Positions 16,883 through 38,957 of a stretch of DNA of 64,000 nt are shown one piece after another; within the stretch, counting starts at the first letter, position 1; each line of letters begins with the position of its first letter. The stretch is from an alpha proteobacterium AAP38 (GTDB taxonomy: Bacteria; Pseudomonadota; Alphaproteobacteria; Azospirillales; Azospirillaceae), in NCBI GenBank assembly GCA_001296005.1, contig LJHR01000005.1:310001-374000 (forward strand). The letters are read 5' to 3'. Made by a program: the position numbers and the translations under genes. The notes under the pieces are model-generated. The model saw only the letters and a list, made by a program, of their open reading frames with translations, did no database searches and was not told the origin of the DNA.

Positions 16883-17749
16883 CTAGTAGGACCCGTCCCT
16901 AACCGCCTTGATGTCGCTATCCGACAATGGCCGCAGGGCGATATTGCGGAAGCTGATTTCCGCAGCCTCAATCTCCAGGGCGATGCGGCCATCGGTAAGG
17001 GACCGCCATTCGGCGGGATTATCCTCCCGCCGTGTGCGCATCGCGAAAAGGGTCGTGACGATCCGGCCATTCACAAGATGCGCCGCCTGATCCCCAAACG
17101 CGATCAGATCAAGCTGGTTCCAGCCGTCCAGCCGCTCGAAATCGCCCGTCTTGCGGAACCATTGCCGCTCAATGGGGCCGGCTTTGATGGGAGGTGCATA
17201 TTCACGCGGAAAGCTGGGCGGATAGTTGGGCCACAGGGCCGTGCCGCCCAGGTTCGGGCCTTCCAGGGCCTGGGTATTGATCATGATGGCATCGCCGACA
17301 TCCGTTTCCTCCACCTGGAATTCAACGGAATCGGGGTAGAGAACACCGCGTGTGGCCTTCATATGGTAGAGGATGCCGCTGTTGCGCTTGGCCAGACGGC
17401 GCGGCGCGAACCGTCGCTCGCCCCATTTGAATTCCAGGCGCAGATGGTAGTTGCCATATTCCTGCGTGGTCGCCAGATGGCCGAAACCGACCTTGCCATC
17501 CCCCCGGAATGTCGGCCCAAGCACATGCAGGGTCCCATCCTGGATATCCAGCACACCACCGGTATCCGTGTCGCCCACCCCGTCTTGAAAGAAGGTCCAG
17601 CCGGACAGGTCCTTGCCATTGAACAGGGGTGTCCAGCCGGCCTCCTGACCAGCTTGCGCGTGACGCATCGCGATGGGGGCCAGGGCAGTGGCAAACGCAC
17701 CACTCATTCCCATCCCCATCAGATGGCGGCGACATATCGGCTGCGGCAT
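16883..17749 (-). CDS. DUF1080 protein, 3-keto-glycoside hydrolase/lyase family
   Basis: The 288-residue protein matches the 3-keto-disaccharide hydrolase (DUF1080) family: WTPLFNGKDLSGW at the start of the jelly-roll, a middle NSGILYHMK with VEFQVEE, and the C-terminal ISFRNIALRPL that ends most members. Relatives cleave 3-keto-glycosides, in part by 1,2-elimination. The N-terminus RRHLMGMG...AQA looks like a Tat signal, which places the protein in the periplasm. The ATG at 17749 is preferred (GGGAAG 5 nt upstream) over 17791, which has no ribosome site. It is the last gene of the operon holding a GMC dehydrogenase, the enzyme type able to make its 3-keto substrate. Confidence 0.88.
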   Translation of the reverse strand: MPQPICRRHLMGMGMSGAFATALAPIAMRHAQAGQEAGWTPLFNGKDLSGWTFFQDGVGDTDTGGVLDIQDGTLHVLGPTFRGDGKVGFGHLATTQEYGNYHLRLEFKWGERRFAPRRLAKRNSGILYHMKATRGVLYPDSVEFQVEETDVGDAIMINTQALEGPNLGGTALWPNYPPSFPREYAPPIKAGPIERQWFRKTGDFERLDGWNQLDLIAFGDQAAHLVNGRIVTTLFAMRTRREDNPAEWRSLTDGRIALEIEAAEISFRNIALRPLSDSDIKAVRDGSY

Positions 17750-17797
17750 GGCTGGCTTCCCTGGCAAGGCATGGGCGAGATTTGCCACCATGCGTGA

Positions 17798-18241
17798 TTA
17801 CGGGCGAAGGCGATCGAAATAGGTGGCGGCCTGATCGGCTGTCAGTTCCTGTTTCAAATCCCAATGTTCCCGGATCAGGCCATCCTGCCAGCGGAAGATA
17901 TCCATCACCGCCGCCCGTATCCCGGTGCCGACACGCACATCCAGTATCACGATGGACAAGGCACCCTGATTGATGGTGCTGACGGGATTGATCAGGAACT
18001 CCGGGCGCGCAAACATCGGTTCCAGCACCTTGATGGCGGCCTCCCGGCCCTGCGCCATGCCGTTGCTGTGCTGAATGTAATCGGCGGCGACGTACCGTTC
18101 GAAGGCCGCCCGCACCTGTTTTTGCCGATAGAACAGGGTGCAGAACATGTCGAGGGCAGGCGGGGCCATGGCCTGCGCCCCGCCTGCGGCCACCAGGGGC
18201 ATGATACCGGCCAAAGACAGGAACTGCTTTCGGTCCAGCAT
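17798..18241 (-). CDS. Exported NTF2/SnoaL-like protein
   Basis: The 147-residue protein has an RKQFLSLAG...GGAQAMA leader, a Tat-like signal with RK in place of RR. It then has a compact SnoaL-like cone fold: YVAADYIQHSNGMAQGREA, and DIFRWQDGLIREHWD, the family's usual C-terminal block. Such proteins bind or isomerise small molecules. In this operon (4 nt after the GMC gene) it may act on the keto-sugar or the aglycone. No specific reaction can be assigned from sequence. Confidence 0.8.
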   Translation of the reverse strand: MLDRKQFLSLAGIMPLVAAGGAQAMAPPALDMFCTLFYRQKQVRAAFERYVAADYIQHSNGMAQGREAAIKVLEPMFARPEFLINPVSTINQGALSIVILDVRVGTGIRAAVMDIFRWQDGLIREHWDLKQELTADQAATYFDRLRP

Positions 18242-18245
18242 GGCG

Positions 18246-19931
18246 TCAGATCCGCCCTTCCTTCAGCATCTTCACCGCCGTGTCACAGGCCCTGGCCGTC
18301 ATGGCCATATAGGTCAGCGACGGGTTCTGACAGGCGGACGACGCCATGGCGGCACCATCGGTCACAAACACGTTGGGCACGTCATGCAACTGGTTCCAAC
18401 GGTTGGTGACCGACGTGCGCGGATCATGGCCCATCATGGCTCCGCCCATTTCATGGATGGCGCTGCCGCCCACGCCCGGACGGTTCAGCGACATGATCAC
18501 CTTGCCGCCAGCGGCGGTCAGCATGGCGCTGGCCTCCTTCCCGGCGTCGGTCAGGGCCTTGTGCTCATTCTCGCCATGGGTGAAATCCACCTGCAGCAAT
18601 GGCGCGCCGAACGCGTCCACCTTTGCCGGGTCCAGCCGCAGGCGGTTCGTTTCCCGTGGCAGGCTTTCGGCGAAGGTGACCAGCACCATGCGCCAGGGGC
18701 CGACATTGCGCAGGTTCTCCTTGAAGCCAGCGCCAATGCCGGGTTCCCGCTTGCCGCGTGTCCAGGCACTGCGCAGCGCGCCGCCCTGGAAACTGTAGCC
18801 ACGGACGAAATCCCCTTCCGCATGGTCACCCAGATTGCGGAACCGGGGGATGACGATGCCCGTCGGCCGATTGCCGAAGGTGGTGCGGTCTTGGAAACTG
18901 TCGAACAGGGCGATGGCCCCCACCGTGCTGGCATGGTCCATGATATGGGTGCCCAGCCGACCGCTGCTATTGCCCAACCCGTTGGCAAACGCGGCAGAGC
19001 GGGAGCGCAGCAGGACATGGTTGGTGTTGAATGCCCCCGCATTCATGAAAATGATGCGGGCGGCATAGCGGCGGCGCTCCCCCGTCTTAACATTCAATAC
19101 CGACACGCCGCTGGCGCGCTTGGTCTTGGCGTCATAATCGACGGTTTCCACGACCGTGTCGGTGATCAGGGTCAGGTTGCCCGTGGCCTGCGCTGCCGGC
19201 AGGGTGGAACTTTGTGTGCTGAAATAGGCGCCATAGGAACAGCCGCGCTGACAGATCATCCGGTTCTGGCAGGCGCTGCGGCCTTCTTTTTCCTGCGTCA
19301 GATTGGCGGTGCGCCCGATGGTCAGGCGGCGGTCGGGCCATTTCGCCTCAATCGCGGCCTTGGCATGCTTTTCCAGCACGTTCAGCGCCATCGGCGGCTG
19401 ATATATGCCGTCGGGCAGGGATGACAGGCCTTCATTCTGCCCTGACACGCCGATGAACCGTTCGACATGATCGTACCAGGGCTTCAGATCGGCATAACGG
19501 ATCGGCCAGTCGACGCCATGCCCGTCCTGCTTGTTGGCCCCGAAATCATGGTCGCTCATCCGATAGGACTGGCGCCCCCAGGTCAGTGAGCGTCCCCCCA
19601 GCTGATAGCTGCGCCACCAGTTGAATTCCGTACCCTCGGCCACGGAATAGGGGTTTTCACGGTCATTGACGAAATGGTTCTGGGTATATTCGGTGAAATG
19701 CCGGTTTTTGGATTGAACGGCAAAGTCGGTCGCATAAAGCTGCGGATCACCCACACCCCGAAACGGCATCTCCCACGGGGATTTCATTTCAGTGACATAG
19801 TCTGCGCCATGTTCGATATGGCGGCCCCGTTCGACCATCAGAACCTTCAGGCCCTTTTCGGTCAGTTCCTTTGCCGCCCAGCCGCCGGTGATGCCGGAGC
19901 CGACGACGATGGCGTCGAAATCTGTGCTCAT
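18246..19931 (-). CDS. GMC-family FAD dehydrogenase large subunit (glycoside 3-dehydrogenase/gluconate dehydrogenase type)
   Basis: The 561-residue flavoprotein has the FAD dinucleotide motif VGSGITGG (10-17) and the C-terminal GMC block with a conserved His in SAIHEMGG and a NPSLTYMAM end. Cysteines 221, 227 and 231 resemble the iron-sulfur cysteine cluster of bacterial FAD-glucose dehydrogenases. Such enzymes oxidise sugars or glycosides, often at C3. It has no signal of its own; the ATG overlaps the stop of the small-subunit gene (ATGA), which carries a Tat signal and probably carries it across the membrane. No cytochrome subunit is encoded nearby, so the electron acceptor is unknown. Confidence 0.9.
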   Translation of the reverse strand: MSTDFDAIVVGSGITGGWAAKELTEKGLKVLMVERGRHIEHGADYVTEMKSPWEMPFRGVGDPQLYATDFAVQSKNRHFTEYTQNHFVNDRENPYSVAEGTEFNWWRSYQLGGRSLTWGRQSYRMSDHDFGANKQDGHGVDWPIRYADLKPWYDHVERFIGVSGQNEGLSSLPDGIYQPPMALNVLEKHAKAAIEAKWPDRRLTIGRTANLTQEKEGRSACQNRMICQRGCSYGAYFSTQSSTLPAAQATGNLTLITDTVVETVDYDAKTKRASGVSVLNVKTGERRRYAARIIFMNAGAFNTNHVLLRSRSAAFANGLGNSSGRLGTHIMDHASTVGAIALFDSFQDRTTFGNRPTGIVIPRFRNLGDHAEGDFVRGYSFQGGALRSAWTRGKREPGIGAGFKENLRNVGPWRMVLVTFAESLPRETNRLRLDPAKVDAFGAPLLQVDFTHGENEHKALTDAGKEASAMLTAAGGKVIMSLNRPGVGGSAIHEMGGAMMGHDPRTSVTNRWNQLHDVPNVFVTDGAAMASSACQNPSLTYMAMTARACDTAVKMLKEGRI

Positions 19932-20536
19932 CCGAATTCCACCGCTGTCCAGTCGTTTGACCAAGCCCGATCCTTGGGGCCGACGGGGATGTCCGGGTCG
20001 AAGCGGCCCGGCACCAGTTCAAAACGCAGTTCCTGGCTGGCGCCGATTTCCGACGTGTAATAGCCAGTGACGATCAGACCCTTCAGCGTGCGCCAGGGCG
20101 ATTTTTCATTGCCGCGCGTATAGGCCTGTGAATCCAGGTCGGTCAGCACCCGGATCTGCATGTCAGGGCTGGCCGACAGGAACGCCCGGCCCGCCTTGAG
20201 GTCTAGTTCAAAGGACAGCCAGTCCAGGATGCCGGCTTCCGCCGGGGCCTTGCCGCCGGTGAAAAGCGCTGCCGCGACCGGCGCATTTGATCCCGATATT
20301 CCGTGCCCGATGGCCAGAGCCAGAAAGGCGGGAACGCCGGCCTTCACCGCACCCGGCGTGTCCGTATCGGGAATGACCAGATCGCAGACGCGGGTAACAA
20401 GGGTACGGTGGCGGTCGGGCAGGGGGGCGCCCGCTGCCACCTGTGCCCACACATCCGCCGGGGTCAGGGCCAGTGCCATGCCCGACAGCAGCAGACCACG
20501 GCGGCCAATGCCGGCGCGCGATATCTCTTCCTGCAT
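19928..20536 (-). CDS. Gluconate 2-dehydrogenase subunit 3-like small subunit (Tat-exported)
   Basis: The 202-residue protein has a twin-arginine leader (IGRRGLLLSGMALAL...WAQ) and the family body: RTLVTRVCDLVIPDTDTPGA, ILDWLS, and LKGLIVTGYYTSEIGA. In FAD-glucose and gluconate dehydrogenases this subunit is a chaperone-like partner that takes the flavin subunit through the Tat pore. The ATG at 20536 follows GGAGAAGGAG. The 4-nt overlap with the GMC gene supports a 1:1 complex. Confidence 0.9.
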   Translation of the reverse strand: MQEEISRAGIGRRGLLLSGMALALTPADVWAQVAAGAPLPDRHRTLVTRVCDLVIPDTDTPGAVKAGVPAFLALAIGHGISGSNAPVAAALFTGGKAPAEAGILDWLSFELDLKAGRAFLSASPDMQIRVLTDLDSQAYTRGNEKSPWRTLKGLIVTGYYTSEIGASQELRFELVPGRFDPDIPVGPKDRAWSNDWTAVEFG

Positions 20537-20561
20537 CAAAACTCTCCTTCTCCGCCGAAGG

Positions 20562-22124
20562 TCAGAACAGGCCCAGTTTCCCGCCGCTGGCCACGAAGGC
20601 ACTGTAGGCCTGACGCTTGGCCGGGGACAAAGGTTCGATCACCCCGGTCCTGTCGCCAAGGCCCATTACGCGGCCATTCGCCAGGACCGGCCAGTCGGGC
20701 AGCCCCGCACCGTTCGGGTTGCCGTTCTTCACGAAATTGGCCCAGTACTGGCCCAGCGTCGCGGCGATGTCATGGTCCGCCTTTGTGAAGGGGCGGGTGG
20801 ACTTGTCCAGCGTGGCGAACACATAGGGCAGTTCGGCGGAATGAAAGGTGCCGAACCGGGCCGGATCGCTGCCGGGCTGCGGGTGCTGGAACAGATAGGC
20901 ATAGACCGGGGCGGCACCGGGCTGCCGCGGCTGCGCCCAGATCAGCATGGAGGCGGTGGCCTGTTCGCGTAACAGGGCCTTGGCCGCTTCACCCGCCTCC
21001 TGACCGTCACTCCCCTGATAGAAGGGGCGGAAGGACGGCGCCTGTGCGCCGAAGCGGCGGTCGATCAGGTCGTTCAGCTTGACCGACGTAGTCAGGTGCC
21101 AGTCGGGACCATTGCTGCTTTCATCCGTCGTCAGGCCGGTCAGGACGGGGATGTCCTGCCGCTGCCGCTCCGGGTTGGGCAGGATGGCTGGTTCCGTGAT
21201 GGGAAAGAAGCGCAGGCCCGGCGGCCCGACGGACGGGTCCTTTGCCGCCTTGGCCAGTTGTTCGGGCGACAGGGCACGCAAGGCGGCGATACCGGTCACG
21301 CCGGCGGCATCCATGACCTTCTGCCCCCGCACCTCGGCATCTGACAGTGGCAGGCTGGGAATGCCCATGCCGGACCCGCTCTGCGCGATGGCGCGGATGA
21401 ACAGCCCGTCTGCCTTGGGCGAAGACAGTATGGCATGGACAGAAGCTGCACCCGCCGATTGTCCGGCGATGGTCACCCGTTTGGGGTCACCCCCGAAATT
21501 CGCAATATTGTTCTGGACCCAGCGCAGGGCTGCCACCTGATCCATCAGGCCGTAATTGCCCGAAGACCCCGCCTCGGCGGTCAGCGCCGGATGGGCCAGG
21601 AAGCCATAGATCCCGACGCGATAATTGATCGTGACGACGATGATGCCGCGTGCGGCCAGCTTCTCCCCATCATACAGGGGGACAGAACCCGAACCACCTG
21701 CAAAACCGCCGCCATGGATCCATACCATGACCGGATGGTTGGCATTGCCGGCTCCCGCCGGGCGCCAGACATTGACCGACAGGCAATCCTCACTCATGGG
21801 ACGGGTTGGGAAATACTCCGCCGACCAGGGGGAACCGCCGGGCGGTGTATAGGGGGGCTCCTGCTGGCAATCGGCACTGAACTGCGTGGCGTCGCGCACG
21901 CCGGACCATGCCGCAACAGGCTGCGGCGGGCGCCAGCGGTTGGCACCGCCAGTATCACCGGCATAGGGAATGCCCAGGAAACGGTCGACACCGTTCTGGG
22001 TGGACCCTGCCACACGCCCCGCCTCCGTCACGGCGTCCGGGCGTGCAGCGCCGGCCATTGACGGCATGGCATACAGGGCCAGCAACGATGCACCAACCCG
22101 CAGAATGGAAAAACTCCACCGCAC
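20562..22124 (-). CDS. Secreted type-B carboxylesterase
   Basis: The 520-residue esterase has HGGGFAGGSG (oxyanion hole) and the serine elbow GQSAGAAS, plus an early Cys-containing QQEPPYTPPGG loop. A GTG start at 22124 is favoured: GGGAGG lies 6 nt upstream and the following residues (VRWSFSILRVGASLLALYA...AGAA) form a normal signal peptide. The sequence is only distantly like the esterase at 11390-13024. Placed between a TonB receptor and a glycoside dehydrogenase, it may remove acyl groups (acetyl, malonyl, cinnamoyl) from acylated glycosides before oxidation. Confidence 0.88.
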   Translation of the reverse strand: MRWSFSILRVGASLLALYAMPSMAGAARPDAVTEAGRVAGSTQNGVDRFLGIPYAGDTGGANRWRPPQPVAAWSGVRDATQFSADCQQEPPYTPPGGSPWSAEYFPTRPMSEDCLSVNVWRPAGAGNANHPVMVWIHGGGFAGGSGSVPLYDGEKLAARGIIVVTINYRVGIYGFLAHPALTAEAGSSGNYGLMDQVAALRWVQNNIANFGGDPKRVTIAGQSAGAASVHAILSSPKADGLFIRAIAQSGSGMGIPSLPLSDAEVRGQKVMDAAGVTGIAALRALSPEQLAKAAKDPSVGPPGLRFFPITEPAILPNPERQRQDIPVLTGLTTDESSNGPDWHLTTSVKLNDLIDRRFGAQAPSFRPFYQGSDGQEAGEAAKALLREQATASMLIWAQPRQPGAAPVYAYLFQHPQPGSDPARFGTFHSAELPYVFATLDKSTRPFTKADHDIAATLGQYWANFVKNGNPNGAGLPDWPVLANGRVMGLGDRTGVIEPLSPAKRQAYSAFVASGGKLGLF

Positions 22125-22163
22125 CTGACACCTCCCGATACTGAAAGCCGCCTTAACGCCGGA

Positions 22164-22196
22164 CATGGATGCCAGGGAAGGTCCCCGGCATCCATG
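22164..22196. other. Stem-loop between TonB receptor and esterase genes
   Basis: CATGGATGCC (22164-22173) pairs with GGCATCCATG (22187-22196), extended by an inner GG/CC pair. It lies 28 nt after the receptor stop within the minus-strand operon and has no T-tract, so it may stabilise the receptor mRNA or attenuate read-through. Confidence 0.5.
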
Positions 22197-22224: not shown

Positions 22225-24507
22225 TCAGAACCGGTAGGTGCCCTGCACGCCAAACGTACGCGGCGGGCCATAGATGGAGTTGTAGATCAGCGAACCGGCA
22301 GCGGCGTTGAAGTTCGCGAAGGCCAGCGGCTGCTTGTCCTCCAGATTGCGGACATAGGCCTGGACCGTGTAGTTGCCATCGCCCGAGTTATATTCGACCG
22401 ACAGGTCGGTCATCATATAGCCCTTCTGGCGCAGGGCAGCCCAGTTCACGACTGACAGGTAATGGGCCGACTTGTACCGGCTGAAGGCCGAGGCCACGAC
22501 ATTCGCGCCGTCACCCAGGTCGAACGTGTGGCTGTACCCGGCGGACAGGGTCCATTTCGGGGCCTGCGGCGGACGGTTGCCCTTCAGGTTGAACTGCTGG
22601 ATGCCGGGGGTGACCGGATCGGCATCGTTGATCGGGGTGCCGTTCACCCCGATCAACGACGTGGCGAAGCTCTGCACCTTGGCATCCAGGTAATTGACGG
22701 TGAAGGACAGTTCGTCGTTCTCCGTCAAGAGGATGCTGGTATCGGTCTCGATACCCCAGACGCGCGACTTACCGGCGTTCAGGGTGCGGGCACCGACATT
22801 GTTGTCCACAAACACCTGGATCTGCTGATCCTTATAATCATAGTAGAAGGCAGAGGCGTTGAACTGCAGGCGGCCACCATTGAAGCGGTTCTTGGTCCCG
22901 ACTTCATAGGCAACCAGTTCTTCCGGCTCATAGGCCCCGACGCTGTCGAAACCGCCACTCTTATAACCGGTGCTGAGCTTGCCATAGACCAAGCTGTCAT
23001 CTGCCGGCTTCCAGTCGATGCCGATATTGCCCGTCACCTGATCGGAAGAAGAACGCGGACGCAGGATGGTGGCACCGGCGGAGCCGAATGCCGGCGGGGT
23101 CGTACCCTCGCCGCGGCCAAAGCGCGGGCCGTAATTGTAGAAGGTGGCGCTCTTGGCGTCGTCGGTATAGCGCAGGCCGCCGGTCACCGTCAGTTCCGGA
23201 CCAGCCACCGGCACCGTGACCTGCCCGAAGGCGGCCTTGGACTTGGACAGGATGTCCGGGCGGTAGAAATAGTTCAGGAAGGCACGCGGTAGTTCCAGAT
23301 ACAGGCCGCGGGACAGGTCAACCTTCTCACGGAAGTAGAAGCCGCCCAGCTGATAGAACAGGCCGTTATCCAGCGTGTTCGACAGGCGCAGCTCGTGGCT
23401 CTGCGTCTGCGAATTCAGCTTGTTGTTGCGGAAGGTGAAGGTCGCGGGCAGATAGCCGTTCAGCGGCAGGGCGCTGTTGGTCTCATTGTCGCGATAGCCA
23501 CCCAGATAGGCCAGCGTGCCCAGGTCGAAATCAAATTCGATCCGACCGCGCAGGGCAAACTGCTCGCTATTGAAATTGCCCAGGTCGCCCAGGGGGTAAT
23601 TCTTGGTGTTGATGCCGCTGAAGGTCAGGTTGGCGGGAATACCATTATTTTCAAACGCGGTGGTCGACGGGATGGCGTCGATGACCCCGGCGGAATAGGC
23701 GGCATTGGTCAGAACGCCATTCTGGGCCACCAGGATGCCGAACTGCGACGGCGGCAGCTGATCGACATTCACATATTCGCCGGCCAGATAGGTGCGGATA
23801 TTCTCCGTGGGCTCCCAGGCGATGGCGAGGCGGGCCGCATCGACATTCTGATCCTCACCACGACCGACGGCGCCATGCTTGCGATAGCCCTTGTGATCGG
23901 TGTGCATGCCGGCGACACGGACGGCAACCGTATCCCCCAGCGGGACATTGACGGCACCCTCGGCCCGCTTGGCGTCGTAATTGCCATAGCCGACGGTCAG
24001 GAAGCCGGCGGTCTTGCCCAACTGCGGCTTGGCGGCGATGATGTTGATGGCGCCTGCGGTCGCGTTGCGGCCATAGAGCGTACCCTGCGGACCGCGCAGA
24101 ACCTCGATCCGTTCCAGGTCGAAGAAGCTGGCATTCAGCGCGACCGGACGGTTGATATATTCGCCATCGATGCCGATGGTCAGGGCCGGGTCGGACGCTT
24201 CGGAAATGTCCTGGCTGGACACGCCGCGCACCGAAATCTTCGTGAAGATCGTGTCATTGGTGACATTCAGATCGGGCGCCAGGCGCGCCAGACCATTGAC
24301 GTCTGACACGCCGGACTTGACCAGATCATCGCCCGTAAAGGCGCGGATGGCGATGGGCGTGTCCTGCAGGTTGGTTGCGCGCTTGGTCGCGGTCACCACG
24401 ATTTCTTCCAGCACCAAAGCGTTGTTGCTTTCGGTCTGTGCCATGGCGGAAGCGGCATGAAGGGTGGTTGCCCCTGCTGCAAGCAGGAGCATCGAACGGA
24501 TGCGCAT
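22225..24507 (-). CDS. TonB-dependent outer membrane receptor
   Basis: The 760-residue receptor has a signal peptide (MRIRSMLLLAAGATTLHAASAMAQ), a LVLEEIVVTATKR plug start, the plug core LERIEVLRGPQGTLYGRNATAGAINI read in two blocks, and a terminal TonB-receptor strand (PRTFGVQGTYRF). It heads the operon receptor-esterase-small subunit-GMC-NTF2-DUF1080. The promoter carries the AGAACCCTAATTCT site, so it belongs to the regulon centred on the TetR gene at 24792. A glycoside or flavonoid glycoside is the likely cargo (inference from its neighbours). Confidence 0.9.
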   Translation of the reverse strand: MRIRSMLLLAAGATTLHAASAMAQTESNNALVLEEIVVTATKRATNLQDTPIAIRAFTGDDLVKSGVSDVNGLARLAPDLNVTNDTIFTKISVRGVSSQDISEASDPALTIGIDGEYINRPVALNASFFDLERIEVLRGPQGTLYGRNATAGAINIIAAKPQLGKTAGFLTVGYGNYDAKRAEGAVNVPLGDTVAVRVAGMHTDHKGYRKHGAVGRGEDQNVDAARLAIAWEPTENIRTYLAGEYVNVDQLPPSQFGILVAQNGVLTNAAYSAGVIDAIPSTTAFENNGIPANLTFSGINTKNYPLGDLGNFNSEQFALRGRIEFDFDLGTLAYLGGYRDNETNSALPLNGYLPATFTFRNNKLNSQTQSHELRLSNTLDNGLFYQLGGFYFREKVDLSRGLYLELPRAFLNYFYRPDILSKSKAAFGQVTVPVAGPELTVTGGLRYTDDAKSATFYNYGPRFGRGEGTTPPAFGSAGATILRPRSSSDQVTGNIGIDWKPADDSLVYGKLSTGYKSGGFDSVGAYEPEELVAYEVGTKNRFNGGRLQFNASAFYYDYKDQQIQVFVDNNVGARTLNAGKSRVWGIETDTSILLTENDELSFTVNYLDAKVQSFATSLIGVNGTPINDADPVTPGIQQFNLKGNRPPQAPKWTLSAGYSHTFDLGDGANVVASAFSRYKSAHYLSVVNWAALRQKGYMMTDLSVEYNSGDGNYTVQAYVRNLEDKQPLAFANFNAAAGSLIYNSIYGPPRTFGVQGTYRF

Positions 24508-24553
24508 TCTGGTTCCTCCCGATGAGGCCGGCACTGTTTACCGGCCAGGCTCT

Positions 24554-31151: not shown

Positions 31152-32471
31152 TCACCCCCGCCGTTCCGGCCAGAAGCCGATGCAGACGATCTGGGCCGCG
31201 ATGGCCAGCATGGCGGGCGCGTAATAGAGGATATGGACCATCCGGCGCGCGTCATCGCCGACATTGGCGGGGTCGTATCCCGCCTGCGCCAGACCGAAGG
31301 CGACAATTGCCCCGCCCAGCGCCATGCCGATCTTGATCGACAGATTGACGCCGGCAGCCAGCAACCCCTCATTGCGGGTGCCGAACTGCGCCTCGTGATA
31401 ATCCACGACCTCTGCCGCCATGGCAAAGATGGCGGTCATGGAGATGCTGATCAGGATCGAGGACAGGATATAGACGGTTAGGAACAGGGCCGGCACCGCC
31501 TCTGTGAACGGAAGGACGCCATACAGCACCAGTGCCGCCGCCAGTGCCACCCGGTTGCCGTTTCGCATGCCCAGCCGTTTCAGGAAGGGCGGGGCGATGG
31601 CCGACCCGATCAACAGGGTGCCCGACACGGCGGGCAGCAGGATGGAGATCATCCAGGGCTGACGCAGGATGTTGATGGCGAAATAGGCGGTGACCGACAG
31701 AACCGCGCCAAACCGGATGAAGTTCAGGCTGGCAAAGCCGAACACCACCAGCCAGGCCCGGTTGCGCAGCATGTCGCGGATGGAGGACAGGCTGGTTTCC
31801 TGCTGGCCCACGGGCGGGGGCACCACCTCCTGGCAACTGGCAAACAGGTTGAGCGTCAGCAGCACAGTAACCGCCGCCATCAGGACCGCGACCCACAGGA
31901 AACCCTGGGCCTGATCCCCGCTGCCCAGCGCCTGGACCAGCGGCATGGTGGCCGCCGTCGCGACGATCACCGACAGGGCGGTGCCGGCGGCCCGCAGACT
32001 GCCCAACTGCACCCGTTCATCCTGCCGCACCGTCATCATCGGCATCAAGGCGCCATAGGGGATGTTGACGATGGAATAGAGCAGTCCCAGTACCACGAAG
32101 CTGACGCAGGCCCACAGCAGCTTGCCGGTCCCATCCAGCGGTGGAACATAGAAACTGGCCACACAGAACAGGCCGAACGGAACCGCCCCGAACAGGAAAT
32201 AGGGCCGCACCCGGCCCCAGCGGCTGCGTGTGCGGTCCACTGCCAGCCCGACCAGCGGATCGAACGCCGCGTCCAGCAGGCGTGACAGCAGGAACAGCGT
32301 TCCCACCACGCCCACGGGCAGCAGCGCCACATCGGTATAAAAGTACAGCAGAAACGCCCCGACCATGTTCCAGGTCAGGCCGAAACCGAAATCCCCCGCG
32401 CCATAGCTCAGCTTGGCGCGCCAGGACAGCGGCGGGGCGGCGATGCCGCCCCCCTCTTGGTTGATCGACAT
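31152..32471 (-). CDS. GPH-family glycoside:cation symporter (MelB-like)
   Basis: The 439-residue carrier has 12 predicted segments and the GPH signature set: KLSYGAGDFGFGLTWN at TM1, DAAFDPLVGLAVDRTRSRWGRVRPY after TM2 (read in two blocks), and a conserved EAQFGTRNEG loop. Members take up glycosides with Na+ or H+. It is the third gene of a minus-strand operon (MFS, Hyi-like, GPH) whose promoter carries the regulon operator. It probably moves the glycoside or its keto form into the cytoplasm for deglycosylation. Confidence 0.9.
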   Translation of the reverse strand: MSINQEGGGIAAPPLSWRAKLSYGAGDFGFGLTWNMVGAFLLYFYTDVALLPVGVVGTLFLLSRLLDAAFDPLVGLAVDRTRSRWGRVRPYFLFGAVPFGLFCVASFYVPPLDGTGKLLWACVSFVVLGLLYSIVNIPYGALMPMMTVRQDERVQLGSLRAAGTALSVIVATAATMPLVQALGSGDQAQGFLWVAVLMAAVTVLLTLNLFASCQEVVPPPVGQQETSLSSIRDMLRNRAWLVVFGFASLNFIRFGAVLSVTAYFAINILRQPWMISILLPAVSGTLLIGSAIAPPFLKRLGMRNGNRVALAAALVLYGVLPFTEAVPALFLTVYILSSILISISMTAIFAMAAEVVDYHEAQFGTRNEGLLAAGVNLSIKIGMALGGAIVAFGLAQAGYDPANVGDDARRMVHILYYAPAMLAIAAQIVCIGFWPERRG

Positions 32472-32491: not shown

Positions 32492-33259
32492 TTACAGGCC
32501 CAGCGTCTTGCGCGCCTGGGTCAGGCCGTCCAGTGTCGGGCCTGTCGGCTTGTATTCCAGGCCGATGGCCCCCTTGTAGCCAAGGTCACGCAGGATGCCG
32601 ATATAGCGGGGCCAGTCGATGGTGCCGCTGCCCGGCTGGTGCCGGCCCGGCACGTCGGCCACCTGTACATGCCCAACAAGATGGAACCGCCCCGCCAGTA
32701 CCTTGGCCGGGTCTTCCCCCATCACGGTGGAATGGTACATGTCATAGAGCAGGCGCAGATTGGGGCTTTTTACAGCCTCAACCATGTCCAGCCCTTCGGT
32801 CGTGCTGACCAGGTACATGCCGGGATGTTCGACCCGGTCGTTCAGCGGTTCCAGCAGAAGCATGATGCCGGCTTCCTCCGCAAGTGTCGCTGCCTGACGA
32901 AGGGCCGTGACGGCCGCATCGAAATGATCCTGACGCGGCACATCGGGCCGGGTGAAGCCGGATGCGACGACCAGGGCCGGCGCACCGGCTTGGCCGGCCG
33001 CGATCAGGCTGTCGCGCACGGCGGCCAGGAATTCCCCATGCTGGGCCGGATCAACGATGCTGCGGCGCGGTTCGACCACGAAACTGGCCAGCTTCACCCC
33101 GGTCTCTTCCAGGGTCTGGCGGATTTCCGTCAACGGCTTTTCCCGCCACAGATGGAATTCCACTGCGTCAAGGCCGGCTGCCTTGGCGGCGCGGATACGG
33201 TCAACAAAGGTCGGGTGTTCGGCGGCGAACAGCCACTCGATACAGGCGGCGAGGTACAT
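32492..33259 (-). CDS. hyi: Hydroxypyruvate isomerase-like TIM barrel
   Basis: The 255-residue barrel has the Hyi/OtnI pattern: CIEWLFAAEHP at the start, LLLEPLNDR (catalytic Glu), LLYDMYHSTVMGED (metal Asp), HVQVADVPGRHQPGSG, and IGLEYKPTGPT (second catalytic Glu). Family enzymes interconvert hydroxypyruvate and tartronate semialdehyde or isomerise oxo-tetronates. GGAGG lies 6 nt before the ATG at 33259. As part of the keto-glycoside regulon it more likely isomerises a small keto-sugar product than acts in glyoxylate metabolism. The symbol denotes the family only. Confidence 0.82.
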   Translation of the reverse strand: MYLAACIEWLFAAEHPTFVDRIRAAKAAGLDAVEFHLWREKPLTEIRQTLEETGVKLASFVVEPRRSIVDPAQHGEFLAAVRDSLIAAGQAGAPALVVASGFTRPDVPRQDHFDAAVTALRQAATLAEEAGIMLLLEPLNDRVEHPGMYLVSTTEGLDMVEAVKSPNLRLLYDMYHSTVMGEDPAKVLAGRFHLVGHVQVADVPGRHQPGSGTIDWPRYIGILRDLGYKGAIGLEYKPTGPTLDGLTQARKTLGL

Positions 33260-33372
33260 GGATGTCCTCCAGACGGGACATGTTTGACCGGCGACAACCC
33301 GGGTAGTGGTCACCGGCGGCCCGCGCATGCGAACCTGGCGCCGAAGCGCTAAAACAGGGCCCCCGGATGGGG

Positions 33373-34608
33373 TCAGTACCGGATGCCGGTGTCGGCCTTG
33401 CCCTTGGCCAGGACCAGTAGGGCGATGGCGGCACCGATCAGGGCGGCGATCCCCATGGTCAGGAAGGCGGCCTGCACCGTGCCGCCCGTGACGGACTTGG
33501 CACCGGCAACAAAGAACGGGCTGGTGAACTGGCCCAGGAAGAAGCAGGAGGCCCAGATGCCCATGCCACGTCCGCGATGGGCAAAGGGCAGCTTGCTCTG
33601 TGCCCAGGCGATCAGGATGGGGATGGTCATGCCAGCGCCCATCTGCTGGATCACCAGCACCACCATCATCGATTTGTAATCCGGGGCCAGCCCGATCCCG
33701 GCCAGACCGACACCCAGGAAGGCGAAGAAGCAGAAAATCTGCAGCGACAGGGTGCGCTTGCCGATCCAGCCGAAGATCAGCGCCCCGACCGGCACGCCCA
33801 GGCTGGCCAGCGCGATCAGGGAGCCGACGCGGGCGGGATTGTCCACCCCAACCTCGCGGAAGGCCAGACCACCCTGGATGATGAAGACATAATACAGTGT
33901 GGAGGCAAACAGGGTCACAACGCCATAGAGTGCCACCGCACGGGTGGGGAAGGGCAGGGCCGGACCCTCATCCGCCGGCTTGGCAGCCGGTGCGCCGCTG
34001 ACAGTCTTGCCGGGTTCGAAAATCATGAAATGCATGCCCATGAAAATGGGCAGTGCGATCAGATAGATCAGGAACATGCCGTTCCAACTGAGCGTCGTCA
34101 GAAGCCCCGACAGGGCGATGACGCCCGATGCCATGGCCGGTCCGGCCAGCCCCTGGATCATCAGGACCCGGCGCCGGCCCTTGGCATCATAATAGTCGGC
34201 GATCAGAGTGTTGACGATGGTCAGGATCGCCGCCTCCGTCACACCCAGCAGCAGGCGCGAGGCGATGACCGCATGTAGGCTATCCAGGAAATAGGGCAGT
34301 GAACCGGCGATCCCATAGAAGAAGGTCGACCAGACCAGAAGCCGTCGGCGACCGAACCGGTCTACCAGCATGCCGGCAAACGGCGCCAGGATGGCGATGG
34401 CAAGGCCGGGTGCCGAAACCAGCACCGGCACCAGCAGGGAGGCATTCGCCACATCCTTGAAATGGTCAAGAATGGTGGGCACCGCCGGCGTCAGCGACAC
34501 AATGGCCAGAATCGGCAGGAAGCCGCTGATCACCAGAATGATGGCTTGGGCAATGCCTGCTTTGCGCACGTCGCCGGATGCCGGCGCCGCGATGGCCTGA
34601 TCAGCCAT
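33373..34608 (-). CDS. MFS transporter
   Basis: The 411-residue carrier has 12 segments, with MLVDRFGRRRLLVW as the TM2-3 loop and DYYDAKGRRRVLM as a matching loop before TM5. It resembles DHA1-type and sugar or aromatic transporters without a clear specific match. GGGAGGAA precedes the ATG by 5 nt. It is the first gene of the minus-strand operon with Hyi-like and GPH genes, directly after regulon operator site 4. Confidence 0.86.
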   Translation of the reverse strand: MADQAIAAPASGDVRKAGIAQAIILVISGFLPILAIVSLTPAVPTILDHFKDVANASLLVPVLVSAPGLAIAILAPFAGMLVDRFGRRRLLVWSTFFYGIAGSLPYFLDSLHAVIASRLLLGVTEAAILTIVNTLIADYYDAKGRRRVLMIQGLAGPAMASGVIALSGLLTTLSWNGMFLIYLIALPIFMGMHFMIFEPGKTVSGAPAAKPADEGPALPFPTRAVALYGVVTLFASTLYYVFIIQGGLAFREVGVDNPARVGSLIALASLGVPVGALIFGWIGKRTLSLQIFCFFAFLGVGLAGIGLAPDYKSMMVVLVIQQMGAGMTIPILIAWAQSKLPFAHRGRGMGIWASCFFLGQFTSPFFVAGAKSVTGGTVQAAFLTMGIAALIGAAIALLVLAKGKADTGIRY

Positions 34609-34644: not shown

Positions 34645-34658
34645 AGAATTATGATTCC
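34645..34658. promoter_or_regulatory. Putative regulon operator, site 4 (MFS-Hyi-GPH operon)
   Basis: AGAATTATGATTCC fits AGAATnnnnATTCT with one mismatch. It lies 36 nt before the minus-strand MFS start. Confidence 0.65.
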
Positions 34659-34796: not shown

Positions 34797-34810
34797 AGAA
34801 TAGCAATTCT
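34797..34810. promoter_or_regulatory. Putative regulon operator, site 5 (monooxygenase-reductase-GH3 operon)
   Basis: AGAATAGCAATTCT is a perfect palindrome, 82 nt before the monooxygenase start. Sites 4 and 5 share one 284-nt divergent promoter region (34609-34892), with 152 nt between their starts. Confidence 0.7.
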
Positions 34811-34892: not shown

Positions 34893-35999
34893 ATGCGTTT
34901 TTCGACCTTTCTGAATGCCCGCTGCATGGGTGAGGAACAGGACCGTGACCTGTTGCTGGATCTGGTGGAGCATGTGGAAAAGGCAGAGGCGGCGGGCTTC
35001 GACGCTGTCTTCCTGCCTGATCATCATTTCACCGGCTACATGCCCATGGCATCCGATCCGATGATGTTCGCCGCGTATCTGGCCGCGCGGGTCAAGCGCA
35101 TGCATTTCGGTTTCTCCGTGACCACGGTTCCGCTGCACCATCCCGTACGGTTTGTTGAGCGCGTGAACATCCTGGATCAGTTGACGGAAGGCCGCCTTCT
35201 GGTCGGTGTCGGCAGCGGCACGACACCGGAGGAGATGATCGGCTTTGGCGTGAACTACAAGGAAGCCTCGCGTCTGGCCGAAGAGAACCTGGCCATTGCC
35301 GAACAGCTTTGGGCCAAGAAGGCGGAAGATGCGCCCGTCACCTTCGACAATGGCCATTACAAGGGTGAGGTGGTGCAGCGCATCGCCCCCGTCGCCTACA
35401 CGCCCGGCCATGCCCGGCTGATGCCGGTGGCGATGAAGGAAAGCAGTGCACGGCGCGCCGCACAGTTCGGCTGGCCGGCCTTCATCCCGGCCTTCACTCC
35501 GCCGCAGATCGGCGGGACCGAACCGTTCAAGCATGTGCAGAAATTCTTTACGATCTATCGTGATCTGCTGCTGGCTGCCGGCCATTCCGCCGAACGTGTC
35601 GCCGATGCTCTGTCCTGGACCACGCACACCTATCAATGCGTGCATATCGCGGAGACGGACGAACAGGCCCGTGCCGAGCTGGAAGACATCCTGACCGATT
35701 ATCAGGCTGCCGTGGAGCGTGAGGCCGCCTTCAATGCCAAGGCAGAGGCGACGGAGGCCAACAAAAAGACCGACCGCACGCCCAACGCCCTGACCGACGA
35801 CTGGATCGGCACTTGGTGCCTGTATGGTAGCCCGGAAACGGTGATCGAACATCTGAAGCCCTATCAGGAACTGGGCATCGGCAATGTGCTGTGCGGTCTG
35901 CTCACCGGTCCGCTGACCGCCAAACGCAAGGCATATGCGAACCAGACCATGGATTATTTGTCGCGCATCGTCATGCCCGCCCTGAAGGGGGGTGCGTGA
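34893..35999 (+). CDS. Luciferase-like flavin-dependent monooxygenase
   Basis: The 368-residue protein has the LuxA/LLM barrel pattern: FDAVFLPDHHFTGY near residues 39-52, an FGFSVTTVPLHHPVRFVE block, LTEGRLLVGVGSG, and the C-terminal GSPETVIEHL motif. LLMs use FMNH2 and O2 to hydroxylate or cleave substrates. The FMN reductase gene overlaps its stop codon (TGATG), giving a two-component monooxygenase. Under the shared operator it may oxidise the aglycone, or open a ring, after deglycosylation. GGAGG lies 5 nt before the ATG. Confidence 0.88.
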   Translation: MRFSTFLNARCMGEEQDRDLLLDLVEHVEKAEAAGFDAVFLPDHHFTGYMPMASDPMMFAAYLAARVKRMHFGFSVTTVPLHHPVRFVERVNILDQLTEGRLLVGVGSGTTPEEMIGFGVNYKEASRLAEENLAIAEQLWAKKAEDAPVTFDNGHYKGEVVQRIAPVAYTPGHARLMPVAMKESSARRAAQFGWPAFIPAFTPPQIGGTEPFKHVQKFFTIYRDLLLAAGHSAERVADALSWTTHTYQCVHIAETDEQARAELEDILTDYQAAVEREAAFNAKAEATEANKKTDRTPNALTDDWIGTWCLYGSPETVIEHLKPYQELGIGNVLCGLLTGPLTAKRKAYANQTMDYLSRIVMPALKGGA

Positions 36000-36559
36000 T
36001 GGCCAAGCCGCTGATCGTCGGGTTCGGGGGCACCACCCGACCCGGCTCGTCCGGGGAGCGGATGGTGGCTGCCGTTCTGGCAGCCACCGAGCAGCTGGGC
36101 GCTGAAACCCGCCTGTTCGGTGGGGCGGCCCTGGCCTCCATGCCGCATTTCGCCCCGGAAAATCCGGGCCGCACGGTGGAGCAGATTGAGTTCGTGGAGG
36201 CGGTGCGCGCCGCTGACGGCATCGTCATCGGTTCGCCCGGCTATCATGGCGGCGTATCGGGTCTGGTGAAGAATGCCATCGACCTGCTGGAGGATCTGCG
36301 CACCGACGCCCGCGTCTATTTTGACGGACGCGCCGTGGGGCTGATCGTGACGGCGGCGGGGTGGCAAGCGGGCGGGGTGACCCTGTCGGCGCTGCGCGGC
36401 ATCACCCATGCCATGCGCGGCTGGCCCACGCCGCTGGGCATCGCCATCAACACCATCGCGCAAAAGCCGTTCGATGCCGATGGCCGTCTGGTCGATGCCG
36501 ACATCATCGCGCAGGTGAATGCCCAGGCCGCACAGGTCATGGCGCTGGCGCGGCGCTAA
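35999..36559 (+). CDS. NADPH-dependent FMN reductase
   Basis: The 186-residue flavodoxin-like reductase has the phosphate loop GTTRPGSSGER (11-21), the GIVIGSPGYHGGVSG flavin-binding segment and LKNAIDL-type VKNAIDLLED, as in SsuE/ArsH-type enzymes. It supplies reduced FMN to the monooxygenase, with which it is translationally coupled. Confidence 0.9.
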   Translation: MAKPLIVGFGGTTRPGSSGERMVAAVLAATEQLGAETRLFGGAALASMPHFAPENPGRTVEQIEFVEAVRAADGIVIGSPGYHGGVSGLVKNAIDLLEDLRTDARVYFDGRAVGLIVTAAGWQAGGVTLSALRGITHAMRGWPTPLGIAINTIAQKPFDADGRLVDADIIAQVNAQAAQVMALARR

Positions 36560-36590
36560 ACAACAATAAGCTCCTATCAGGGAAGAACCC

Positions 36591-38957
36591 ATGTCCACCC
36601 ATCCGCTTGATCTCGCGGCGCTGACCAGTGGCCGCGACATGTGGTCCACTGCCGCGCTGCCGGGCATCCGTTCGATCATGATGGCCGATGGGCCCATGGG
36701 GATCGCGTCGGGTCGCGTCGATGAACGGGATGTTGCGGTGTTGACGCCCTGCGGCACGGCGCTGGGCGCCAGCTTTGATGCCGATCTGGTGGCGCGGGTG
36801 GGGGCGATTGTGGGCATGGAGGCGCGGCGCCTGGGCGTCGATGCCGTGCTGGCCCCGAATCTGAACCTGCAGCGCAGCCCGCTCTGCGGTCGGGCGTTTG
36901 AGCTTTATGGTGAAGACCCGTTTCTGGCGGGGCACCTGGGTGCCGCCTGGATCAGCGGTTTGCAGGGCCAGGGTGTCGGTTCCGTCGCCAAGCATCTGGT
37001 CTGCAATGACAGCGAGACCGACCGCGACAGCATGAATGCGGTGGCCAGCGACCGCGCCCTGCATGAAGGCTACCTGCTGCCGTTCGAAATGGCGGCGGCG
37101 GCGGGATGTGTCGGGATGCTGGCCGCCTATAACCGCCTGAATGGCGATTATTGCGTGGAGCATAAGCAACTTCTGACCGATATCGTTAAGGGCGATTGGG
37201 GCTTCACCGGCTTCATCGTATCGGACTGGTTCGGTGGACGCGACACCTTGCGATCGGCTCATGCTGGGCTCGACCTGGACATGCCGGGCCCGGACCGGGT
37301 GCTGGGCACCAAGTTCGCGGCGGCGGTGCGCGACGGACAGGTGCCACTGGAACGGCTGGCCGATGCCACGGGCCGCGTCGCCAACGCCGTTGCCCGCATC
37401 GACGCCCTGCCGCGTCAGGCGCCCGTCGCCAATCCCGATGCCACATTGGTGGAGGCGGCGGCGGCTGGCTTCGTGCTTTTGAAGAATGACGGCGACGTTC
37501 TGCCGGTTCTGCCCAAGCGGGTGCGCCGCATCGCCATCATCGGCCCCAATGCTGCCAGTCCCTGCCTGCAGGGCGGCACCTTCGCCAAGATCGCCGTCCG
37601 TCCGGATTTCATCACCCCCTTGCAGGCCATCCGTGACCGGTTCGGCGACAAGTGCGAGGTGCTGTATGAACAGGGTGTGGAGCCGGAATACCGCCTGCCG
37701 CCGATCAGCGCCACCCCCGCCCGCGACCTGGGCGACGGCGCCACGCGCGGCCTGACGGTGGAATGGCTGCCGGAGGATGGCGAAACGCCTGTCCATGCCG
37801 AAACCCGCGACACCAATTCCCTGACCTGGTTCGTGGGGCTGCCGGGCACCGACGCCCTGAAACAGCCGGGGCGTATCCGAGCCACCGGCTGGATCACCCC
37901 GGAACGCAGCGGCCCGCATCGCCTGCATGTTGGAGGTACCGGTACGGTCACGCTGTCGGTTGATGGCGAACAGGTCTTTGCCGGCGGTGGCCCGGTGTCG
38001 CCATCGGACCTGATGGGCATCCTGAAGGGCGGTGACAGTCAGTCTGTCATTGTCGACCTGAAAGCCGGGCAGCCGGTGCTGCTGCGTTTCGAACTGACCT
38101 ACAGCCCCGCCCGCGCGCAGGGCCTGTGGTACGGGGTGCGCGGCCCGGACTTGCCCGACGCCATGCTGGCCCGTGCCGTTGCCGCCGCTGCCAAGGCCGA
38201 TCTGGTCCTGCTCATGCTGGGTGAGACGGCGGATGCCGGTGTGGAAAGCAAGGATCGCGCGGGTACTGCATTGCCGTCGGCGCAGATCGATCTGATCGAC
38301 CGTATCCGGCATGTAAACACCAACATCGTCGCCATATGCAATGTCGCCCATGCCTTCGACCTGTCCTGGCAGGACAAGGTGCGCGGCCTGATGATTACCT
38401 GGTATCCGGGTGAGCAATATGGCCCGGCCCTGGCCCAGGTCCTGGCCGGTGACCGTGAACCAGGCGGGCGCCTGCCCCTCAGCATCGCTGCCCGCGACGC
38501 TGATTACCCCGCCTTCGACCTGAAGCCGCAGGCCGGTGGTGCTGTGCCGTACCGGGAAGGTCACCTGATCGGCTACAAAGGCATGCAGGCGGCGGGCGCC
38601 GATCCGCTGCATGCCTTCGGCACCGGTTTCGGCTATGCGCGCTTCGACCTGCTGGAGGCGGCGGTTGCCGGTGAACTTGCCCATGGCGTTACCGTATCGG
38701 GCCGGATACGCAATCTCTCTGACCGGCCCGGCAAGGCGGTGCCCCAGCTCTATGTCGCCGGGGCTGATAATGTACGTCACCTGTGGGCGTTTGCCGCCGT
38801 CACGGTTGCAGCGGGTGAAACCCGTTCCTTTACCCTCTCGGTCCCGGCACGCGCGTTCCAGACATGGGACGGCGGCTGGACCAATGCCACGGGGCCGCAC
38901 CATATCCTGGTCGGTTGGAACAGTGTAGACCTGCCTATCCAACTGCCAGTTGGGTGA
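36591..38957 (+). CDS. GH3 beta-glucosidase with PA14 insertion
   Basis: The 788-residue glycosidase has the GH3 barrel (LTSGRDMWST, DGPMGI, LAPNLNLQRSPLCGRAFELYGEDP read in blocks, SVAKHLVCNDSE) with the nucleophile Asp212 in IVSDWFGG. A second alpha/beta domain begins near residue 290. A PA14-like beta-sandwich (about 390-520: TGWITPERSGPHRL, VDGEQVF) is inserted, followed by a fibronectin-III-like C-terminus. There is no signal peptide, so it acts in the cytoplasm. The start is 31 nt after the FMN reductase. PA14-type GH3 enzymes often hydrolyse aryl-glucosides, which fits the island. Confidence 0.92.
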   Translation: MSTHPLDLAALTSGRDMWSTAALPGIRSIMMADGPMGIASGRVDERDVAVLTPCGTALGASFDADLVARVGAIVGMEARRLGVDAVLAPNLNLQRSPLCGRAFELYGEDPFLAGHLGAAWISGLQGQGVGSVAKHLVCNDSETDRDSMNAVASDRALHEGYLLPFEMAAAAGCVGMLAAYNRLNGDYCVEHKQLLTDIVKGDWGFTGFIVSDWFGGRDTLRSAHAGLDLDMPGPDRVLGTKFAAAVRDGQVPLERLADATGRVANAVARIDALPRQAPVANPDATLVEAAAAGFVLLKNDGDVLPVLPKRVRRIAIIGPNAASPCLQGGTFAKIAVRPDFITPLQAIRDRFGDKCEVLYEQGVEPEYRLPPISATPARDLGDGATRGLTVEWLPEDGETPVHAETRDTNSLTWFVGLPGTDALKQPGRIRATGWITPERSGPHRLHVGGTGTVTLSVDGEQVFAGGGPVSPSDLMGILKGGDSQSVIVDLKAGQPVLLRFELTYSPARAQGLWYGVRGPDLPDAMLARAVAAAAKADLVLLMLGETADAGVESKDRAGTALPSAQIDLIDRIRHVNTNIVAICNVAHAFDLSWQDKVRGLMITWYPGEQYGPALAQVLAGDREPGGRLPLSIAARDADYPAFDLKPQAGGAVPYREGHLIGYKGMQAAGADPLHAFGTGFGYARFDLLEAAVAGELAHGVTVSGRIRNLSDRPGKAVPQLYVAGADNVRHLWAFAAVTVAAGETRSFTLSVPARAFQTWDGGWTNATGPHHILVGWNSVDLPIQLPVG

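Follow-up and report, generated by a model that had tools for sequence, protein, structure and literature searches.

How is an aromatic compound taken apart when its sugar is held by a carbon-carbon bond, given that C-glycosides resist hydrolysis and that the fate of the aglycone after cleavage by soil bacteria is little known? This question is raised by a stretch of 64,000 nucleotides from the alphaproteobacterium AAP38 (Azospirillaceae; genome of 5.78 Mb), positions 310001-374000 of the 498-kb contig LJHR01000005.1, which is referred to as the window throughout. An island of about 22 kb within it (window 16883-38957) had been described in a first-pass annotation, made from the letters alone, as a combined degradation locus for 3-keto-glycosides and C-glycosides, and gene calling by Pfam and NCBIfam scans recovered each of the enzyme classes named there (Table 1). 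In our assessment, the island is probably a catabolic regulon, encoded at one locus, for the use of aromatic C-glucosides and O-glucosides, of which flavonoids are the likeliest, with one operator covering uptake, C3 oxidation, breakage of the carbon-carbon bond, recovery of the sugar and a candidate oxygenase for the aglycone. The identities of the genes, the catalytic residues, the sequence and confinement of the operator and the co-occurrence of the genes were observed directly and are taken up in turn.

Whether these genes belong together can be judged from their promoters. When the intergenic stretches alone were searched for repeats, the operator AGAATNNNNATTCT, i.e. AGAAT-N4-ATTCT, was obtained, with five sites of at most one mismatch in the window, all of them at island promoters. 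Shuffled windows held a mean of 0.41 such sites, and five or more were reached in none of 100 shuffles. Only three exact copies of the operator exist genome-wide, each of them inside the island, against none of the reversed control pattern, and no copy with up to one mismatch was found in the 66.7 kb to the left and the 40 kb to the right of the window. The sharing of an operator, as claimed in the first-pass annotation, is thus confirmed and the operator itself identified. A direct-repeat search of the whole island was discarded, as it gave chance-like, mostly coding repeats in the 20 families listed out of at least 60, and a palindrome at 39124, in front of the GH115 gene, is a different motif. 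For comparison with other bacteria, the best 80 of 296 relatives of the island's C-glycoside deglycosidase (CGD) alpha subunit were taken as named loci, each with flanks of at most 10 kb; a match required E 1e-8 and a coverage of 40% of the query. Operator sites recur in these relatives, those of other phyla included: 74 of the 80 loci hold one with up to one mismatch and 38 an exact one, and the 181 sites found (5 of them inside window-type genes) compare with 12, 24, 20, 26 and 15 in five Markov-1 controls. The TetR regulator of the island is the putative binder of AGAAT-N4-ATTCT because of its position and because TetR relatives of 36-43% identity occur in six plasmid stretches bearing the island's luciferase-like monooxygenase (LLM), with the operator preceding the LLM gene in five of the six. 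A mere chance neighbourhood of sugar genes with no common function might be imagined, as TonB, esterase and glycosidase genes abound on the contig around the island, and xylan-type genes at 39172-49673 look separate. Five promoter operators with no exact copy elsewhere, together with gene sets kept in other genera, make this reading very improbable, the operator having largely refuted it.

The substrate class is indicated by the gene pair at 29555-30964, which, judged by homology, lies firmly within the CGD alpha/beta family. The beta gene starts 12 bp after the alpha gene. In addition to its match with 8qvc_A, CGD alpha scores 110-145 bits with seven further distinct PDB chains among the matches listed; its score with 7bvr_A (PuCGD alpha) is 132 bits. 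All metal ligands (E156, D188, H272, K274 and E308) as well as the catalytic His/Glu (H158 and E310) were recognized by eye from alignments (numbering from 29519), corresponding to the ligands Glu, Asp, His, Lys and Glu and the His/Glu base given for AgCGD2/PuCGD in the accessible part of Mori et al. (PMC8563793). In CGD beta, Tyr33 aligns with Tyr39 of 9m3a_B, which we infer to be the Tyr39 described as critical in PuCGE, an enzyme whose alpha subunit shows no C-glycoside cleavage without beta (PMC13273386). A profile search had been suggested as the means of refuting the assignment of the 29555/30572 pair as deglycosidase alpha/beta; it upheld this assignment instead, PF19906, 8qvc and the residues being in agreement. 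The closest relatives of CGD alpha are found in a Niveispirillum metagenome-assembled genome (99% identity), Azospirillum sp. RU38E (96%), Niveispirillum sp. SYP-B3756 (93%) and three Nitrospirillum records (92-93%), so that the host, a plant-associated bacterium, is by this gene most likely a Niveispirillum. A second CGD alpha/beta pair, 32-34% identical to that of the island, is located on the same contig (C45:259300-270016), its beta gene 46 kb left of the window. It is accompanied by its own TetR relative, a TonB receptor, an esterase, GH1, an MFS transporter and a GMC protein; neither a Gdh3 match nor an AGAAT-N4-ATTCT site was detected in its surroundings (66.7 kb left of the window).

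CGD-type lyases act on glycosides oxidized at C3, and a dehydrogenase for this step is proposed in the GMC flavoprotein. Its best solved relative is the large subunit of fructose dehydrogenase (132 bits); the GMC chain 7qf8 reaches 35 bits. An assignment as pyranose oxidase-type enzyme (CarA/PurA/G3Ox) was rejected, as matches to pyranose oxidase chains are confined to the C-terminus (22-33 bits) and TIGR02462 reaches 48.7 against a cut-off of 544.9. The GMC protein (PF00732/PF05199) is encoded together with a Tat-exported PF13618 partner (RRGLLL), which is the layout of GlycDH, whose partner we take to belong to the Gdh3 family. GMC and the Gdh3/Tat subunit are proposed, on sequence grounds, to form a glycoside C3 dehydrogenase. 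Among the TIM-barrel isomerase/hydratase-like enzymes noted in the first-pass annotation, all of which are present, the one at 28215-29267 can now be specified as a predicted 2-hydroxy-3-keto-glucal hydratase: its residues 1-350 align over the full length with residues 1-349 of 8ro4_A, a PDB entry of this name. For the barrel at 32492-33328, the best match among solved structures, 3ngf with 90 bits, is not a close one. According to the accessible part of Bitter et al. (PMC10628242), an Agrobacterium operon encodes GlycDH, a lyase, a 2-hydroxy-3-keto-glucal hydratase and a Gfo reductase, GlycDH being expressed with a TAT-pathway protein, and O- and C-glycoside lyases yield the same product, 2-hydroxy-3-keto-glucal. 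Because the window mirrors this operon, with CGD replacing the O-specific lyase, the two dehydrogenases of the island are most likely the two ends of one route, GMC catalyzing the first step and the Gfo/Idh reductase the last. Both enzymes are thus present as first annotated, while their reading as two entry routes is not retained. The two cleavage types are likewise found together under one operator, although the DUF1080 protein, with weak matches to solved relatives (26.5 and 22.3 bits), can be regarded as an optional accessory for O-glycosides, since it occurs in only 7 of the 80 named loci. An alternative reading takes the locus as mainly an O-glycoside system with C-glycosides as a side line, as CGD-type lyases also cut 3-keto-O-glucosides. 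It can draw on PuCGE, which cuts both 3-keto-O- and 3-keto-C-glucosides (PMC13273386; also PMC10628242 in its accessible part), and on GH3 and DUF1080, O-glycoside enzymes by family, being encoded in operons with the common operator. We consider it unlikely, as the beta subunit needed by PuCGE alpha for C-glycosides is encoded in 79 of the 80 named loci (the 80th is cut by a contig end), with the Tyr in place here, and as GH3 would make a second O-glycoside route unnecessary.

The island is a module that recurs in other bacteria and is most fully conserved among sphingomonads and Azospirillaceae, with DUF1080 as its least constant named part. Besides CGD beta, the 80 named loci contain TetR in 62 cases, GPH in 55, MFS in 54, the second TIM barrel in 52, GMC in 50, TonB in 48, Gdh3 in 46, Gfo/Idh in 42, LLM in 41, the hydratase in 40, GH3 in 40, a DHA2-type MFS in 34, the FMN reductase in 28, and the esterase and SnoaL in 16 each. 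A family set, covering up to 20 kb on each side of CGD in the 10 further members of the family that carry CGD, shares 8 of the 80 contigs. Here, G068 holds nearly the whole set, DUF1080 included, and G069 all except DUF1080; G059, G062, G063, G065 and G075 have most of it in altered order with some other TonB/esterase genes, G060 has about two thirds, and G071 and G072 have part of it within the stretch examined, which ends at its limit or at a contig end. Nearly the same gene set is carried by a Croceicoccus marinus plasmid, and Deinococcus aetherius has a reduced one (LLM, FMN reductase, GH3, CGD, GMC and TetR, plus an ABC transporter). The uniqueness of the combination implied at first therefore does not hold, similar sets existing in other genomes. 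On pNL2 of Novosphingobium aromaticivorans, DUF1080 lies directly 3' of CGD beta.

The part of the island with the least described chemistry is the unit of LLM, FMN reductase and GH3, which comes with a TetR gene and in most cases retains the operator. A two-component monooxygenase had been recognized in it at first sight, and both components, LLM (PF00296) and an adjoining FMN reductase (PF03358), are present, combining a luciferase-like fold with a neighbouring FMN-reductase-like gene. Of 82 genomes of the order, 11 have CGD beta; LLM (E 1e-60) was found in 10 of these and in none of the 71 others; the eleventh, G072, is a fragmented assembly with a contig end nearby. In a phylum sample of 398 genomes, LLM occurs in three at E 1e-80, host genome included, and both others have the operator before LLM, G212 together with CGD and DUF1080 and G403 together with ring-cleavage genes. 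GH3 is found somewhere in 37 of the 41 LLM-containing named loci, the other 4 being truncated where the locus or contig stops. From 10 plasmid records containing LLM relatives, seven were examined: the operator lies just 5' of LLM in six (Croceicoccus, Deinococcus, Sphingobium, Streptomyces and two Novosphingobium), and none was seen upstream of LLM on the Pseudomonas sp. CIP-10 plasmid. The unit also occurs without CGD in the stretch covered, namely by ring-cleavage genes in the Pseudomonas plasmid and G403, by protocatechuate genes in Streptomyces, and by P450 and glycosidases in two Novosphingobium plasmids; on the Novosphingobium P6W plasmid, a CGD alpha relative lies about 31 kb from it. 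A structural model of LLM (pLDDT 83, 16 rows) has a luciferase-type fold, with 7bip_A, RslO1 of Streptomyces bottropensis, as best match (Z 32.2, 3.1 Å over 318), followed by 2i7g, 8cbb and luciferases (Z 30.1-30.9). Diketocamphane monooxygenase 4uwm_A reaches Z 28.1, compared with 30.1-30.7 for the luciferases, and fold ranks leave the Type II Baeyer-Villiger class and other LLM enzymes unseparated; this match list supports the fold, not a substrate. RslO1 presumably acts in an aromatic polyketide pathway and may serve as a lead to the function of LLM.

We read the LLM/FMN reductase pair as a candidate oxygenase system for aglycone oxidation. An operon 7 kb past the end of the window (contig 381000-386522) encodes, in addition to an FAA hydrolase and a cyclase, an FAD monooxygenase, a VOC dioxygenase and an alpha/beta hydrolase. 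Enzymes of the last three kinds, the dioxygenase being of glyoxalase type, are described for the fde/ifc flavonoid A-ring pathway in the accessible part of PMC11069340. The alpha/beta hydrolase of this operon is found in all 11 CGD-bearing genomes as compared to 12 of 71 others (p 0.04 within the two carrying genera). The main reason for assigning an aglycone to LLM is G403, where LLM stands with ring-cleavage genes but no FAD monooxygenase relative was detected at E 1e-40 (28 weaker candidates), one being found in 7 of 7 other genomes searched. Alternatively, the pair could serve another purpose, such as phenolic detoxification or sugar oxidation, and have only the inducer in common with the rest. 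LLM folds are generic, the unit is also found without CGD, and LLM need not be the ring hydroxylase because the host has an FAD monooxygenase beside its ring-cleavage genes as well; Deinococcus, too, combines both types by annotation and similarity. With LLM tracking CGD across the 82 genomes and G403 as described, we regard this as possible, though less likely than not. As observations in their own right, ring-cleavage genes lie a few kb from CGD alpha in L064 and L067 (Niveispirillum SYP-B3756 and Azospirillum RU38E), unlike in the host genome, and the FAD monooxygenase frame of G075, on the same contig as L067, contains two stop codons.

The coexistence of LLM and FAD monooxygenase in the host and in Deinococcus is among several points that weigh against the regulon as proposed. 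No operator site with up to one mismatch is present at the aglycone operon, which, for this reason, is placed outside the island regulon. Genome-wide, 30 sites with up to one mismatch were found, 25 of them outside the island, against 16 in the control, so that the outside sites are near background yet somewhat above it and a few may mark further members. Coverage among relatives is partial: 43 of 80 loci have the operator no more than 350 bp before CGD alpha, in 19 of 41 it precedes LLM, at up to one mismatch, by no more than 300 bp, GH3 follows LLM within 2.5 kb in 20 of 41, an FMN reductase match adjoins LLM in 27 of 41 with none adjacent in 14, and DUF1080 adjoins the module in the few loci mentioned. 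The association of LLM with CGD (Fisher p 5e-12; 0.0003 within the two carrying genera), like that of the hydrolase, is uncorrected for shared descent. Finally, the CGD alpha relative of Sphingobium TomTYG65 (L061) has Gln at the position of metal ligand H272, and GH3 stays under every named subfamily cut-off among the matches listed.

For substrates, order of steps, compartments, direction of the Gfo/Idh enzyme, TetR-operator binding and the role of LLM, the following course is proposed. A glycoside would be admitted by the TonB receptor, deacylated by the esterase and oxidized at C3 of its sugar in the periplasm by the GMC/Tat-subunit dehydrogenase. The GMC partner (Tat), the DUF1080 protein (Tat-like), the SnoaL-like protein and the esterase are placed outside the cytoplasm because of their signal-like N-termini, which a hydropathy script and inspection by eye did not reveal on CGD, hydratase, GH3 and LLM. 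The oxidized glycoside would then be imported by the MFS or GPH carriers, and CGD alpha/beta would release the carbon-linked sugar as 2-hydroxy-3-keto-glucal by metal-dependent beta-elimination, while the exported DUF1080 enzyme could act on O-linked sugar. The hydratase would give 3-keto-glucose, which the Gfo/Idh enzyme would reduce to glucose, and ordinary O-linked glucose would be removed by GH3 in the cytoplasm. The freed aglycone might be oxidized by LLM with the FMN reductase and passed on to the A-ring cleavage operon. TetR would repress the five promoters via AGAAT-N4-ATTCT until released by glycoside or aglycone. The leftward run from the TonB receptor to DUF1080 appears to be one operon because its genes are tightly packed or overlapping.

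Table 1 Genes and operator sites of the island (positions in the window)
Feature	Position	Strand	Evidence or context
DUF1080 / 3-keto-disaccharide hydrolase protein, predicted optional lyase for 3-keto-O-glycosides	16883-17791	-	PF06439 113.6 bits (cut-off 26.8); Tat-like N-terminus, RR motif at residue 21
SnoaL-like protein, signal-like N-terminus	17798-18241	-	PF12680 36.7 bits (cut-off 27)
GMC flavoprotein, proposed large subunit of glycoside C3 dehydrogenase	18246-19964	-	PF05199/PF00732
Gluconate-2-dehydrogenase subunit-3-like (Gdh3) partner of GMC	19928-20602	-	PF13618 81.2 bits; Tat motif RRGLLL
Carboxylesterase, possible deacylase of acylated glycosides	20562-22166	-	PF00135 361.5 bits; signal-like N-terminus
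TonB-dependent receptor	22225-24534	-	PF00593/PF07715
Operator, 1 mismatch	24572-24585		between TonB-led leftward operon and TetR; identical sequence in G068, G069, G072, G075
TetR regulator, proposed binder of AGAAT-N4-ATTCT	24792-25472	+	PF00440
Operator, exact	25506-25519		43 bp before MFS start (MFS/Gfo/hydratase)
MFS transporter, DHA2-like	25563-27029	+	PF07690 133 bits
Gfo/Idh/MocA oxidoreductase, proposed 3-keto-glucose reductase	27042-28196	+	PF01408/PF22725; 378 bits to PDB 3v5n
TIM barrel, 2-hydroxy-3-keto-glucal hydratase by homology	28215-29267	+	614 bits to PDB 8ro4
Operator, exact	29398-29411		upstream of CGD alpha/beta
CGD alpha, predicted 3-keto-C-glycoside lyase	29555-30559	+	392 bits to 8qvc_A
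CGD beta	30572-30964	+	PF19906 145.9 bits (cut-off 27.6)
GPH-family glycoside:cation symporter	31152-32471	-	TIGR00792 316 bits (cut-off 231.35)
Hydroxypyruvate-isomerase-like TIM barrel	32492-33328	-	PF01261 139 bits; under every NCBIfam cut-off among matches listed
MFS transporter	33373-34608	-	PF07690 112.5 bits; start picked by analyst
Operator, 1 mismatch	34645-34658		upstream of MFS/TIM/GPH operon
Operator, exact	34797-34810		upstream of LLM/FMN reductase/GH3
Luciferase-like (LLM) flavin monooxygenase	34893-35999	+	PF00296 153.6 bits
NADPH-dependent FMN reductase-like protein	35999-36559	+	PF03358 80.7 bits; under NCBIfam cut-offs
GH3 beta-glucosidase-like enzyme	36591-38957	+	PF01915/PF00933/PF14310; 398 bits to 7pjj

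The island does not stand out by its GC content, which was followed in 2-kb steps (0.60-0.68). An open reading frame at 25484-27052 was rejected as a gene, as it has no Pfam/NCBIfam match and the MFS gene starting at 25563 overlaps it in another frame. To the right of the island, positions 39172-52364 contain GH115, MFS, GH43, a second GPH symporter, an aldehyde dehydrogenase, a TonB receptor, an alanine-racemase-like protein and an ALO-type oxidase. GH115, GH43, the second GPH symporter, aldehyde dehydrogenase and TonB receptor (39172-49673) were considered as members and rejected, having no operator and matches of low identity in 0-9 of the 80 loci, and the stretch 39172-52364 has the look of a cluster of its own, for glucuronoxylan or a lactone. 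Past the DUF1080 operon, a TonB receptor, an MFS transporter, a second carboxylesterase and an acyl-CoA ligase (9819-17070) could handle acyl groups released from glycosides; among the 10 family relatives, their gene order is kept in G068 only. Further left, genes for a LeuC-like hydratase, an aconitase C-terminal-type protein, a class III CoA-transferase and an HMG-CoA-lyase-like enzyme stand in a row (3697-7931), and a selenocysteine tRNA called by ARAGORN at 3067-3160 inside an MFS gene (2364-3725) is probably a false positive. A 364-residue open reading frame on the minus strand (59316-60410) has no Pfam/NCBIfam match.

Beyond this host, TetR, operator, LLM, FMN reductase and GH3 may constitute a travelling unit that senses a glycosylated polyphenol, removes its O-glucose and oxidizes the aglycone by a flavin-dependent reaction undescribed in flavonoid catabolism, and that together with CGD would form a self-contained regulon for C-glycoside mineralization; we hold this tentatively, judging it nearly as apt to prove right as wrong. 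Its range extends over Alphaproteobacteria, Deinococcus and Streptomyces, with a Pseudomonas plasmid lacking a detected operator. If true, one short operator could read out inducer and substrate of a mineralization regulon, operator and LLM/GH3 pair would provide a sequence handle for such regulons in other phyla, and LLM would be a candidate new flavonoid oxygenase with, in the operator, a clear experimental entry. In the literature covered, which was partial and held few subscription journals, none of the papers listed dealt with LLM enzymes in flavonoid or C-glycoside catabolism or with C-glycoside clusters of sphingomonads, and none described the LLM partner or the dedicated operator and its occurrence in several phyla.

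Among known systems, considered from the accessible parts of the respective papers, fde of Herbaspirillum and ifc of Variovorax (PMC11069340) resemble the operon past the window in enzyme kind, with FAD monooxygenase, VOC/glyoxalase dioxygenase and alpha/beta hydrolase, while the accessible text makes no mention of a luciferase-like enzyme (0 occurrences of the word), as found in the island. CarABC/PurABC/DgpABC (PMC8563793, PMC12724307) share the order of reactions, in which oxidation at C3 precedes cleavage by a heteromeric CGD alpha/beta, with metal ligands and base conserved. They oxidize, however, by the oxidase CarA/PurA or the Gfo/Idh enzyme DgpA, whereas GMC with a Tat-type Gdh3 is proposed here, and the island adds hydratase, TonB uptake, LLM pair, GH3, DUF1080 and a dedicated operator. 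The Agrobacterium GlycDH-OGE-HYD-Gfo operon (PMC10628242) has the same four-step logic, with GlycDH and its TAT-pathway signal protein, hydratase and Gfo reductase; where it encodes the O-specific AtOGE, the island has CGD alpha/beta, and none of the three TIM barrels has AtOGE (8BVK) among its PDB matches at E 0.001. Caulobacter LacABC/DUF1080 (PMC9007349) likewise places a multi-subunit, periplasm-facing 3-dehydrogenase beside a DUF1080 protein with putative signal peptide, a layout that the island couples to C-glycoside cleavage. The sugar half of the island is thus known chemistry in a new arrangement, and its new points are the LLM partner and a dedicated operator that recurs in several phyla.

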